Source of the DNA: Theionarchaea archaeon
Lineage (GTDB): Archaea > Methanobacteriota_B > Thermococci > Methanofastidiosales > SZ-28-30
Length of the DNA stretch: 64,000 nucleotides
NCBI GenBank assembly: GCA_018992685.1
Contig: JACVGT010000018.1
Location: 1 to 64,000 of the forward strand
Direction of reading: 5' to 3'
Position 1 is the stretch's first letter, and the number at the start of each line of letters is the position of its first letter. The position numbers were made by a program, and so were the translations under genes. The notes beneath the pieces were generated by a model that worked only from the letters and a program-made list of their open reading frames with translations, was not told where the DNA came from and searched no databases. Positions 53,044 through 60,354 of this stretch are shown one piece after another.

Positions 53044-54138
53044 TTACTGGATGAGTTCGCCATCTTCCATGATGACAGTACCATCAACTTTGACTGTGGG
53101 GCGCAACATCACTAGATCCCAGTGAAGGCTTGATTCATTCTCCCCTCCGAATTCCCTGTTCTCTCCCAGAGCAATGTGTATCGTTCCAATAATCTTCTCG
53201 TCAGTTATCACATATCCTGTAGGTCGAGTTATCTCGGGATTCAGTCCGATGCCAAGCTCCCCGATAACATCTTTCTGGCCATGAGAGTGAGAGAGAACAC
53301 CTTTGAACAGGTCCTCATTTTCCTGGCAGGTTACCGAGACCACCTTCCCATCCTTGAAGATACAGTCGATCCCCCTAATTTTTTCTCCTTTGTAGAAAGC
53401 AACATCAAAATATGCTCTTCCCTGGGCAGATGATTCTATAGGGGCACAGAAAACTTCCCCAGCAGGTAGATTATTGCCAATATCTCCCATAGATATATCC
53501 TCCTCAGAGATAATCCCATCATCGATGAAAACTGGCCTTCCTGCAATCTGAAATTGTAGATCTGTCTTTTCCGTGGTGATGTGTACAGTGTGGCCATTTC
53601 TCAGTAGGTCAGCCACAGCCTTTCCTCTGGTGTACAATTCCTGGTAGTCAGTGGTTACTGCTTTCCAGAACATGTCATGAAATTCCTCGTAACGGACCCC
53701 ATACATCTCTGCTTTTTCTGGAGTTGGAAATCCCATTCCTGTCCATCTGACCTTTCTTTCCAGTAAGATGTTGTTGATAGGTAGGCGTGATTTCCTCTGG
53801 GCTCCAATTCTCTCCTCCGGTACTGATTGGAAAATTCTGGGATCCTCAGTCCTGTCAAGAAAGATCTGACCATCCACGAATCGAGCTAGTTCCAGGGTGG
53901 ATTTTGGCGGGGTCTCCAGAAAGTCAGTGTCGGGCTCCAGGAGCAGCCTCGTGGTCAGTCGGTCAGTGTAGGGAGTAAGGACAAAATGAGCATTCTGTCT
54001 GGAAATTGCCACAGCCAAATCTTCCATAAGCTCAAAGCAGAACAGCCCTCCAGCAATCCATATGATCTCCCCCGCCCTGACCCTCATACACTGGGTCACA
54101 ATCGTCTCCGCTACTGAATCCAGATCTACGTTAATCAT
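53044..54138 (-). CDS. M29-family metalloaminopeptidase
   Basis: 364 residues with M29 (aminopeptidase T/AmpS) landmarks: an N-terminal VRAGEIIWIAGG, NNLPAGEVFCAPIESSAQG, an ELGIGLNPEITRPTGYVITDEKI segment with the metal-binding glutamate, IIGTIHIALG, and SSLHWDLVMLRP with the metal-binding histidine and aspartate. It removes N-terminal residues from peptides in the cytoplasm. Start ATG at 54138. Confidence 0.92.
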   Translation of the reverse strand: MINVDLDSVAETIVTQCMRVRAGEIIWIAGGLFCFELMEDLAVAISRQNAHFVLTPYTDRLTTRLLLEPDTDFLETPPKSTLELARFVDGQIFLDRTEDPRIFQSVPEERIGAQRKSRLPINNILLERKVRWTGMGFPTPEKAEMYGVRYEEFHDMFWKAVTTDYQELYTRGKAVADLLRNGHTVHITTEKTDLQFQIAGRPVFIDDGIISEEDISMGDIGNNLPAGEVFCAPIESSAQGRAYFDVAFYKGEKIRGIDCIFKDGKVVSVTCQENEDLFKGVLSHSHGQKDVIGELGIGLNPEITRPTGYVITDEKIIGTIHIALGENREFGGENESSLHWDLVMLRPTVKVDGTVIMEDGELIQ

Positions 54139-56793: not shown

Positions 56794-57465
56794 ATGTGCA
56801 GAATGCTGGCATTCATGGGACCCCCTTGTAGTCCTGAGGACCTCCTGACCAAATTCCAGAGGCTTGCTTTGTACGGAAACAGTATTGATGGAGTAGGTCA
56901 TAGAGATGGCTGGGGGATTGGATATTATTCTCACGGTATTGTCCTCACCAAGAAGGCCGAATGTGCGGCTGAAAGTACGAAATATACAGAAGCCGCTCTA
57001 GAAGCAGCCCAGAAGGCCCCCCACGTTCTTATGGCACATCTCAGAAAAGCTTCTCCCAACACTCCAGTAACAGATGAAGAAGTTCATCCTTTTCAGATAG
57101 ATCATTATCTGTTTTGTCATAATGGTTCTATCACCCAGAGAGATGGTCAGCCGCTTGGAAAAACTCTAGATAGTGTTCTCTTTTTCAGAAAATTGAGAGA
57201 AACATCCCTTATTGAAGCGGTAGCCTTTTTCAGAGACTTCAAGTACACCTCACTGACTTGTCTCCTGACTGATGGTGTCAAAATCTGGGCGTACAGAGAG
57301 TGCACAGAAAGAGAAGACTATTACACCCTGTACTATTGTACGCGTCAAGATTCTGTGATCGTATGTTCAGAACCAATCCTCGACTGTCGGTGGGTACCTG
57401 TGGACAACAGACAGCTCATTACTGTTCTCCCGGATCACTCCGTTCTGACAGAAATGCTCACATAG
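56794..57465 (+). CDS. Class II glutamine amidotransferase (YafJ-like)
   Basis: 223 residues. The nucleophile Cys2 follows the initiator (MCRMLAFMGPPC), and GHRDGWGIGYYSHG, LMAHLRKASP, and FCHNGSI are the glutaminase motifs of the Ntn-hydrolase fold. No synthase domain is attached. A TATA element (ACTATTATAAAC) is about 28 bases upstream. It converges on the radical SAM gene; the stops are adjacent. Confidence 0.92.
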   Translation: MCRMLAFMGPPCSPEDLLTKFQRLALYGNSIDGVGHRDGWGIGYYSHGIVLTKKAECAAESTKYTEAALEAAQKAPHVLMAHLRKASPNTPVTDEEVHPFQIDHYLFCHNGSITQRDGQPLGKTLDSVLFFRKLRETSLIEAVAFFRDFKYTSLTCLLTDGVKIWAYRECTEREDYYTLYYCTRQDSVIVCSEPILDCRWVPVDNRQLITVLPDHSVLTEMLT

Positions 57466-58728
57466 TCATCCGGCCAGTGTTTTGCATCCCACGTCTCCTA
57501 AAGGACACCCTGCCGTGCACTCCTCTTCCATGAGACAACCGTTGCATTCTAAAGGCATATACTTCTTGTTCCTGATGGAGGTAGCCAAGGGCGAATTCCA
57601 GATTTTCTCCCAGGGGTCTTTCAATATATTCCCCATCCCCTCAAACCAACTCTGGCAGGGTATTACCCTCCCGTCAGGTTCCACTGTCACATTAATCCGG
57701 GCGGCAGAGCACATCTTGAGCCCCAGTCCCAACCCCAATGGATCAAAATCACATCTCCTGGTGGGCGTATACCACACCATTTCGAGTCCCAATTCCAGAG
57801 CCTTGTCCCTGATGTTCTCTACATTGCCCTTCAATTCCTCAGGTGTGAGCCCATATTCTGCATCTTCTGCCCTCCCCGTCTTAATAATGGAATTCAGGGC
57901 GAACCGCTTCAACCCCATGCCAGAGAGCATTTCAAGAAGCTCTGGAACCTCATTGACATTCCTAGTTGTCAGGGTGGTATTGGTCAGTGTGAAAATGGAG
58001 GAATCTACACAATTCTTGATTCCCTGGACAGTCTCATCCCAGGCATCTGAGCAAACCATGTCGTTATGCGTTTTCTTCAACCCTTCTATCGTGATCTGGA
58101 CATGATCCAGCTCCACCTTCTCCAGGGCAGACACCATGTTTCTTGTCAGCAGCCGGCCATTGGTCACCAACCCAGTAACCATGTTCCGAGCATACCTCAC
58201 GAGGTCTACCAGGTCTTCCCGCAGTAACGGTTCTCCCCCTGTGAAAATGAGAGCACCTACATCAAGCGAGTCAATGATGTCAATAACCTGTTGCCACTGG
58301 CTGGTCTCTAATTCTGGAGTCTTCTTTGGTCCACCCATGTAACAATGGAAACAATCATTATTGCATCGATAGGTGACAGCCAGGTCAAATCGGTGAGGAG
58401 CCTTCAACTCACGTGAAAAGGGAGGAATACTCTCAATGCCCAGAAAAGAAAAGGGACAGACATCCCTTCTGGAAGCCAGAGTCAGTATGGAGAATAACAC
58501 CTGTTCATAATCCTTCTTTGCCGTTTCTTTAGATACCCTGTACTTCCTGGTCATTTTGTCCACTACGTCGGCCTCGTCCAGTTCTTCCATAATCATTCGA
58601 GTATAGTCTGCTGCTGTTTGGTTCAGGTACAGCAGGTGTGCTCCATTGATATTCAGTATAGAGTAGTCTTTTTCCTCTCTCAATGATAGACGCACCTGAC
58701 CTTCCTCGTATTGCAGTGTTTTCCTCAT
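57466..58728 (-). CDS. Radical SAM/SPASM enzyme with N-terminal PqqD-like recognition domain
   Basis: 420 residues. About 1-90 form a PqqD-like RiPP-recognition element (LNINGAHLLYLNQTAADYTR, VVDKMTRKYRVSKETAKKDY). The radical SAM core has the cluster motif CNNDCFHC (about 141-148) and FTGGEPLLREDL. The C-terminal SPASM region (about 335-415) carries the cysteines of auxiliary clusters: CSAARINVTVEPDGRVIPC, ECNGCLMEEEC, GCPLGDVGC. Enzymes of this layout modify peptides or protein tails, often forming thioether or C-C links. The gene lies nine bases after the DUF2207 gene, whose cysteine-rich tail is the likely substrate (inference). Confidence 0.9.
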   Translation of the reverse strand: MRKTLQYEEGQVRLSLREEKDYSILNINGAHLLYLNQTAADYTRMIMEELDEADVVDKMTRKYRVSKETAKKDYEQVLFSILTLASRRDVCPFSFLGIESIPPFSRELKAPHRFDLAVTYRCNNDCFHCYMGGPKKTPELETSQWQQVIDIIDSLDVGALIFTGGEPLLREDLVDLVRYARNMVTGLVTNGRLLTRNMVSALEKVELDHVQITIEGLKKTHNDMVCSDAWDETVQGIKNCVDSSIFTLTNTTLTTRNVNEVPELLEMLSGMGLKRFALNSIIKTGRAEDAEYGLTPEELKGNVENIRDKALELGLEMVWYTPTRRCDFDPLGLGLGLKMCSAARINVTVEPDGRVIPCQSWFEGMGNILKDPWEKIWNSPLATSIRNKKYMPLECNGCLMEEECTAGCPLGDVGCKTLAG

Positions 58729-58737
58729 GATATCACC

Positions 58738-60354
58738 TCAGAACCCTCCTCCTGAAGCACAGGCACAGGCACAGGAAACACAGGCACAGGCACAGGCACA
58801 GGAAACACAGGCACAAACACAGCTCTTATGGGCATGTGAAACCTCGGCAGATGGTTTTCCAGGGACAGCGTGCTTTTCCCAGCCTTTTTCCAGCGATTTC
58901 TTGTTCAATCCAAGTTTGTCCTCCACGTTCTTCTTGGCCTGTGATATTGACTCTGAGAAGTCCTTTCCATTAGATGCTTTCCCCAGGTTATACCATATCC
59001 ACCAGCTGGAAGGCGTGTAGGGCGTAGAAACATTACCAAAGGCGTCTCTGGTCTTCTCATCAAAGGTGGGATCAGCCATTAGCCAGTCCACCTTATCTCC
59101 AAAGAGCTTGTATCTGTCTTCTGCAGTAGCAGACTCAATATCTGCCCAGTAGCTCTTGATCTGTTCTCTGTAGAAGTCTTCTGTCTCTTTTCTGGAGTAG
59201 CCAGTCATCTTGGAATCCACTTTCTTGTATATGGTCTCCAGAAGGGTATTCACCGCAGTGCCATCCAGAGTTCCATCCTCTTTTATACCATGCAACAGGA
59301 ATTCGTTTTCATAGTACGTGAGATGGCCAGAGAGGCGCACCTCACTTCCGCAGTACTGACAGAACTGGAGCTCAACAGCAGAATCCAGAGGGGCTCCGCA
59401 ATTAGGGCAGTTGAAAGCTTCTTCTTTCTTTTTCTGCTCTATGACTTCAGCTTTTACAGGGCCCCAATCCAGAATCCGGAGGGCACCCTTCCGGACGAGC
59501 CCCAAGAGCATGAGATTCACCAGGTTTACAGGATGTGCATTCAGCACATAGGCAGCTTCAACAGAATCCAGATCTTTCCTGACACCCAGTGATTCCATGG
59601 ACAGCGTTGGTGAGGTATACTTCACTTTCCTGACCAACTTGAATATTATAAAGATGAACGCAAATCCAAGAAGGAGCAGCACCACAAAACAGCATACGAA
59701 CGTACTTGCAAGTGATCCCGGTTCTTTGACAGGTGTTACCGGCACTGCAGTCTCCTGCATGGTTACATAGGTTTCAGGGAAGGACACGCCGCACCTGAAT
59801 TGATAGTTAGATCCCACATTCGCACGTTCGAAGTATACAAAGGCCCTTCCCCCTTCCATTCCCCTGTTTTCTGCTGTGGCGGGGTAATTCCCGACTTCAG
59901 ATATATCACATCCTTCAGGTAAGATAAACTTGACTCGAAGAACCTCTGTTGGGAAATCAAACCACGTTGGAATAAATTCTACTCCTAACCTACCTTCTTC
60001 ATCTGGAAAAATCATATATAGTACGGAAAAGCTCACTTTAACCTCTGTTATGTCACCAGATTGGGCTTCATCAAGGAAAAACACTTTCAATCGTTCAGGC
60101 TCCTGTTCTACCGTCAGCATGCGTCCACTCTGGGAAGCTGCATAATCATACACGGAATCATTGGGTACACCCACATATATTCCTCTATGGGGGCCCTGTG
60201 TGGTCTGTATGGTAAAATAGTACCAGATTTCAACAGTAGAGTCGCTATTAATATAGACTTCAACATTCTCCTCTTTGACAATAAACTGAGGTGACTGTGC
60301 CTGCGCAGCACAGAGCATAAAAAACAGTATGACCAGGGGAATTACCTTTTTCAT
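58738..60354 (-). CDS. DUF2207 membrane protein with a cysteine-rich, GGGF-ending cytoplasmic tail
   Basis: 538 residues. A signal peptide (about 1-19) is followed by an extracellular DUF2207 domain (about 25-195, STVEIWYYFTIQTTQGPHRG), a membrane helix (about 215-240), and a cytoplasmic part with a wHTH-like segment (AAYVLNAHPVNLVNLMLLGL) and a zinc ribbon (FNCPNCGAPLD, QFCQYCGSEVRL). The last 45 residues contain SHAHKSC, then ten cysteines alternating with Ala, Val or Val-Ser (CVCACVSCACACAC and on) and the end ASGGGF. By topology the tail is cytoplasmic, where the neighbouring radical SAM enzyme acts. A TATA element about 29 bases before the ATG makes the mRNA probably leaderless. Confidence 0.85.
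   Translation of the reverse strand: MKKVIPLVILFFMLCAAQAQSPQFIVKEENVEVYINSDSTVEIWYYFTIQTTQGPHRGIYVGVPNDSVYDYAASQSGRMLTVEQEPERLKVFFLDEAQSGDITEVKVSFSVLYMIFPDEEGRLGVEFIPTWFDFPTEVLRVKFILPEGCDISEVGNYPATAENRGMEGGRAFVYFERANVGSNYQFRCGVSFPETYVTMQETAVPVTPVKEPGSLASTFVCCFVVLLLLGFAFIFIIFKLVRKVKYTSPTLSMESLGVRKDLDSVEAAYVLNAHPVNLVNLMLLGLVRKGALRILDWGPVKAEVIEQKKKEEAFNCPNCGAPLDSAVELQFCQYCGSEVRLSGHLTYYENEFLLHGIKEDGTLDGTAVNTLLETIYKKVDSKMTGYSRKETEDFYREQIKSYWADIESATAEDRYKLFGDKVDWLMADPTFDEKTRDAFGNVSTPYTPSSWWIWYNLGKASNGKDFSESISQAKKNVEDKLGLNKKSLEKGWEKHAVPGKPSAEVSHAHKSCVCACVSCACACACVSCACACASGGGF
58750..58822 (-). repeat. Hexameric TGTGCC coding repeats of the cysteine tail
   Basis: The minus strand repeats TGTGCC in blocks of one to three units separated by TGTGTTTCC; each TGTGCC encodes Cys-Ala. 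The block is repeated, so slippage or unit duplication probably set its length. Confidence 0.75.

Follow-up and report, generated by a model that had tools for sequence, protein, structure and literature searches.

The window, i.e., the whole stretch of 64,000 nucleotides that was analyzed, contains a gene for a membrane protein with a cysteine-rich C-terminus and, directly downstream of it, a gene for a radical SAM enzyme. This arrangement raises the question whether the tail of the membrane protein is the substrate of the enzyme, as the original prediction had proposed. Both genes and all features within them lie on the minus strand. The putative substrate, here termed the carrier, is a protein of 538 amino acids (58738..60354) with archaeal and bacterial homologues of the same architecture. 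Translation of the ORF confirmed that it ends with a ten-cysteine tail closing in ASGGGF: its C-terminus KSCVCACVSCACACACVSCACACASGGGF has 10 cysteines within 21 residues, followed by these six, and the putative modified core CVCACVSCACACACVSCACACASGGGF comprises residues 512-538 (58741..58821). The TGA stop codon of the carrier gene is followed by the nine-base spacer GGTGATATC (58729..58737), which resembles a ribosome-binding site with an SD-like GGTGAT, and then by the ATG of the enzyme gene, so that the predicted distance of nine bases was found in the sequence. Judged from this spacing, the two genes presumably form one transcription unit.

The enzyme (420 amino acids, 57466..58728; AF2 model with pLDDT 88) was predicted to carry a PqqD-like N-terminus on a radical SAM/SPASM protein, and Pfam recovered all three domains. 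The PqqD-like RiPP recognition domain (PF05402, 29.1 bits, cut-off 23.4) covers residues 1-86 (58471..58728) and is modeled as strands followed by three helices. The radical SAM core (PF04055, 73.4 bits; 57925..58377) has the CxxxCxxC motif (C122, C126, C129), which is invariant in 45 of 45 sequences, and the SPASM domain (PF13186, 42.7 bits; 57484..57711) contains C340, C358, C395, C398, C404, C408, and C415. C326, C340, C358, C395, C398, C404, and C408 are invariant in the 45 sequences, and C415, the eighth cysteine of the SPASM region, is present in 17 of them. By analogy with anSME, one auxiliary cluster could have an open site in most members, namely those lacking C415. Such an open cluster site serves substrate thiols in some maturases. 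The best structural match of the enzyme model in Foldseek was SkfB (E 2.9e-21 over 389 columns), and SkfB, SuiB, PqqE, and CteB were all within the first eight fold matches. The resemblance to SkfB, SuiB, and CteB extends along the entire enzyme model. SkfB and PqqE were also the nearest solved structures by sequence. The predicted fold is thus that of RRE-containing RiPP maturases. Every NCBIfam cut-off was missed by the enzyme, with scores far below, and its assignment to the curated maturases or heme enzymes was dropped for this reason.

The carrier consists of a signal peptide, a beta-rich ectodomain, a single transmembrane helix, a winged-helix-like region into which a zinc ribbon is inserted, a helical part, and finally the tail. 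The predicted signal peptide (residues 1-20, 60295..60354) coincides with a hydrophobic segment at residues 1-19 and a helix at residues 4-15 of the AF2 model. The extracytoplasmic beta-sandwich domain (residues 22-200, 59755..60291) was modeled with a pLDDT mostly >90, and Foldseek matched it to ribophorin I/Ost1 and to the N-domain of M1 aminopeptidases. The transmembrane helix (residues 216-244, 59623..59709) has its Kyte-Doolittle maximum of 3.25 at residues 219-237 and is followed by positive charge; across 55 carrier homologues, the mean net charge is -0.8 before and +3.3 after this helix. Since there is one strong transmembrane segment with positive charges behind it, the tail is predicted to be on the cytosolic side. 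Signal peptide, ectodomain, transmembrane helix, and charge distribution thus all agree with the topology proposed before.

The proposed division of the carrier into DUF2207, winged-helix-like, and zinc-ribbon parts held only partially. The zinc ribbon (residues 312-339, 59338..59421) was recognized by Pfam as DUF7575 with 29.8 bits at a cut-off of 28.5, but it is not a general part of the carrier, as it occurs inside the carrier only in the order of the window's organism, and carriers elsewhere, which share just 22-33% identity with the window protein when the tail is set aside, are devoid of it. The DUF2207 label was not upheld by the Pfam model: PF09972 gave no match at E ≤ 1 anywhere in the genome, and what is left is a remote, weak hhalign match to the DUF2207 protein YciQ of E. 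coli over the transmembrane helix and the winged-helix region (probability 62%, P 7.3e-5). Filing the carrier under DUF2207 was therefore dropped, and so was TIGR04222, which scored 14.1 bits against a cut-off of 43 and whose protein gave no profile match. No NCBIfam model covers the carrier.

The tail forms the very end of the carrier, follows a linker that is variable and flexible, and is disordered in the AF2 model (pLDDT 33-40). It is near-invariant, and at the DNA level 23 of its 27 codons vary only synonymously among seven genomes of the window's order, three codons altering the residue. Because of this synonymous variation and because the tail pattern does not occur a second time in the window's genome, chance or a DNA-level repeat was rejected as its origin. 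The cysteines follow a CxC/CxxC spacing, and of 811 residues between paired cysteines in the tails, 754 are alanine and 56 valine. Two forms of the tail can be distinguished. The first, found in most archaea, has mostly ten cysteines in three blocks; the second, e.g., CACACACA-G-CACACAGGGR, has 6 to 8 cysteines and is found in bacteria and some Asgard archaea. That a tail can be even shorter is illustrated by locus L375 (genome G321), where the minimal CACACAGGGR with three cysteines adjoins a pseudo-enzyme. The tail is preceded by a conserved segment with the carrier consensus PG..FA...FT...T..TNP.P.

If the tail is a substrate, tail and enzyme should be found together, and the original prediction had named a lack of co-occurrence as evidence to the contrary. 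This check was run starting from the tail and starting from the enzyme, and the pairing held in both directions. A tail profile detected the tail in 7 of 115 genomes of the window's phylum, which are exactly the seven with an enzyme orthologue of ≥ 60% identity (7/7), and in 0 of the remaining 108. In the six further genomes of the order that encode an orthologous enzyme (60-89% identity), the tail always adjoins. When the entire carrier was used as a profile, one more genome of the phylum was detected (G012), in which a contig end cuts the carrier before the tail; apart from this truncated copy, the carrier never occurred without tail and enzyme in the 115 genomes.

Public species genomes were then covered with a DNA pattern for CxxCACACAxG, a strict version adopted because looser patterns gave excess noise in viral contigs. 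This tail-first scan yielded at least 67 loci with usable C-terminal tails among the matches listed. These matches included archaeal tails from Bathyarchaeota, other Thermoproteota, Asgard archaea, and Thermococci, and bacterial tails from Anaerolineales, other Chloroflexi, Aminicenantes, Coatesbacteria, Zixibacteria, Fermentibacteria, Acidobacteriota, and others. At 61 listed tail loci, at least 900 bp of downstream sequence were available. An active enzyme is encoded directly downstream on the same strand at 52 of them, and a pseudo-enzyme without the radical SAM cysteines at three. Neither was found nearby at the other six, but a full-length orthologue is encoded elsewhere in all six genomes, and likewise in three more genomes in which the stretch downstream of the tail was too short. 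The motif CxxCACACAxG is conserved by construction in this set, a bias from which the enzyme-first searches are free. In the latter, the tail adjoined the enzyme at 30 of 30 inspected loci of a Bathyarchaeota order and likewise at 30 of 30 of a Chloroflexota order. Among 151 genomes of the Bathyarchaeota order, 56 have both, one only the enzyme, one only the tail, and 93 neither, and both discordant genomes have N-runs, i.e., assembly gaps, across the missing part. The corresponding numbers for 151 genomes of the Chloroflexota order are 85, 7, 2, and 57. Two of the seven enzyme-only genomes have a tail missed by the search (with seven and three cysteines), four are explained by contig ends and one (G421) is unexplained; contig ends also account for the two tail-only genomes. 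Fisher values for these distributions are descriptive, since the genomes of one order are related and the P-values overstate independence. Pairwise distances of carrier and enzyme correlated with r = 0.92 (36 loci), which partly reflects shared descent. The pairing of tail and enzyme far exceeds chance.

The neighborhood of the pair was compared across about 70 loci. In line with the original prediction for the window, neither a protease nor an exporter recurs among the neighbors. A small gene for a transmembrane-zinc-ribbon protein lies upstream of the carrier gene at 34 of 41 suitable loci among the matches listed. The encoded protein (e.g., L171, L198, L206) has about 120 amino acids, two transmembrane segments, a zinc ribbon, and a conserved terminal [EN]P[KV]W, and it reached no curated family at cut-off. 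Since the window's own order, as far as it could be examined (L220), has no such separate gene and is the only one whose carrier has a ribbon, the zinc-ribbon function looks as if it had moved into the carrier. In Chloroflexi, the pair is followed by a pseudo-radical-SAM protein, which contains a PqqD domain but no CxxxCxxC, and often also by a class I methyltransferase. Such a pseudo-enzyme is present at at least 27 listed tail loci, mostly of Chloroflexi (L176:4251-5450, L169:3155-4522, and 25 others, a few being contig-end fragments), and at L190 and L201 it is the gene after the tail. It has the PqqD domain and a radical SAM-like barrel, lacks CxxxCxxC, and, in the copies that were read, also lacks most SPASM cysteines. 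The pseudo-enzyme probably acts as a partner of the active enzyme without being catalytic itself. At L190:2062-3747, L201:2783-4432, L371, L372, and L376, a third PqqD-radical SAM protein was seen, which is divergent and bears a GGGCSGCSGSCGTGG-like segment at its own C-terminus; at several loci it adjoins a carrier-like membrane protein without a Cys-Ala tail. Some genomes of the window's order encode downstream of the maturase an SPFH/Band 7 protein with C-terminal zinc ribbons (L005:65-1033, L007:2486-3446), which we take to be reminiscent of YdjI-type membrane-stress proteins. In the window itself, a gene for a class II glutamine amidotransferase-like protein (EgtC/GATase_4-like, 56794-57465) directly abuts the maturase gene in convergent orientation.

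The co-occurrence in three groups and the predicted RiPP-maturase fold support the view that the tail is the substrate of the enzyme, and we infer this strongly. We consider it likely that carrier and enzyme form a substrate-maturase pair in which the enzyme introduces crosslinks, probably thioethers, into the cytosolic Cys-Ala tail, which stays attached. Since the conserved tail goes together with the same enzyme in both archaea and bacteria, it is very probably a chemically modified protein tail. The PqqD-like domain would bind the C-terminal, cytosolic part of the carrier, with the conserved PG..FA...FT...TNP-type stretch before the tail as a possible docking site, and the radical SAM/SPASM domain would then introduce covalent links within the tail. 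These links would most likely be thioethers from cysteine sulfur to a neighboring backbone or side-chain carbon, given that cysteines are the conserved residues and that thioethers are the product of the closest structural relatives, SkfB and CteB. SuiB forms a C-C link, which makes the thioether product uncertain, and we hold it with moderate confidence by analogy. Also with moderate confidence, the modified tail would remain on the membrane protein and provide it with a functional group that is derived from cysteines and lies in the cytosol, since no protease recurs and carrier, tail, and enzyme are tightly linked. Several observations count against a substrate-maturase pair: the substrate would be a membrane protein of 500-600 amino acids rather than a short precursor peptide, at the six listed tail loci mentioned above the enzyme is encoded at a distance from the tail, and the AF2 model gives the tail no structure.

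The modified tail might instead be cut off to give a small peptide-derived product or cofactor, with the membrane protein serving only as a carrier, as in PQQ and mycofactocin, which set the precedent for such products. The PqqE and MftC models rank among the better NCBIfam matches of the enzyme, the position of the tail behind its flexible linker would suit a cleavage, and an M29 aminopeptidase is encoded 3.3 kb from the pair (53044-54138). The latter gene is, however, non-adjacent and belongs to no recurrent neighbor cluster, no peptidase or exporter recurs around the pair, and the strict association of the carrier with tail and enzyme in the phylum also speaks against this explanation, which we regard as unlikely.

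The co-occurrence by itself would also be explained if the tail were of service to the enzyme, e.g., as a metal donor. According to this explanation, the tail is an unmodified metal binder of the metallothionein type, a buffer or donor of metal or clusters; one recipient could be the radical SAM enzyme, which would then have a different substrate. The cysteine spacing does resemble metallothioneins, the enzyme needs several iron-sulfur clusters, and the locus encodes further zinc-ribbon proteins. On the other hand, the restriction of 810 of 811 residues between paired cysteines to alanine or valine is more than metal binding demands, and the enzyme has a peptide-binding PqqD domain and the predicted fold of a peptide maturase, which makes an unmodified metal binder improbable. 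It is highly improbable that the enzyme belongs to the tetrapyrrole-type radical SAM proteins of the NirJ/AhbC kind and that its neighbor has no part in its reaction, as NirJ2, NirJ, and AhbC are among its best NCBIfam scores but reach at most about 128 bits against cut-offs of ≥ 500, and as the N-terminal PqqD domain, the near-strict pairing with the tail in distant phyla, and SkfB as the best structural match all argue against it.

Returning to the crosslinked, attached tail, the most natural guess for its cellular role is a metal- or redox-related one. Tentatively, and with slightly less than even confidence, the tail crosslinked in place may be a permanent, protein-attached cytosolic cysteine cofactor that is built by a radical SAM enzyme and is metal- or redox-active; in this cofactor assembly, Chloroflexota might include in addition the pseudo-radical-SAM partner and often the methyltransferase.

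No description of the tail or of its pairing with the enzyme was found in the open-licence literature, and NCBIfam has no model for either protein. A survey of archaeal RiPPs mentions radical SAM-modified RiPPs in general and not the carrier-maturase pair (PMC12144867). The carrier resembles DUF2207 proteins such as YciQ of E. coli in its order of ectodomain, transmembrane helix, and winged-helix-like region, but the Cys-Ala tail is specific to the carrier described here. The ACGX system (TIGR04340) likewise has a radical SAM/SPASM enzyme, and its target is a repetitive Ala/Cys peptide; with 74.4 bits against a cut-off of 400, the enzyme studied here is no member of this family. Most known examples of peptide maturation by radical SAM enzymes concern free precursor peptides, in addition to a few soluble enzyme subunits. 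In the compact system described here, which occurs in both archaea and bacteria, an enzyme of this kind is linked to the cytosolic end of a membrane protein with a highly repetitive and strongly conserved tail motif. With SkfB, CteB and the sactipeptides, SuiB, and PqqE, it shares the PqqD-like domain, the CxxxCxxC core, the SPASM cysteines, and an adjoining, co-encoded cysteine-rich C-terminal target with a conserved core. What sets it apart from these RRE-containing maturase systems is its target, a cytosolic tail on a single-pass membrane protein of 500-600 amino acids, and the lack of any recurrent leader-core peptide gene, protease, or exporter. Membrane proteins of the TIGR04222 family with Cys/Gly/Ser tails are encoded beside MNIO (DUF692) enzymes and were discussed as possible MNIO substrates (PMC12452194); among published proposals, this one comes closest to the pair described here. 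Both cases involve a membrane protein with a low-complexity, cysteine-rich C-terminal tail beside a peptide-modifying enzyme. They differ in the enzyme (MNIO there, radical SAM here, with no MNIO enzyme among eight window proteins scanned with family models), in the location of the tail (predicted periplasmic there, cytosolic here), and in the carrier family. This parallel suggests that the modification of cysteine tails is a more widespread theme among membrane proteins.
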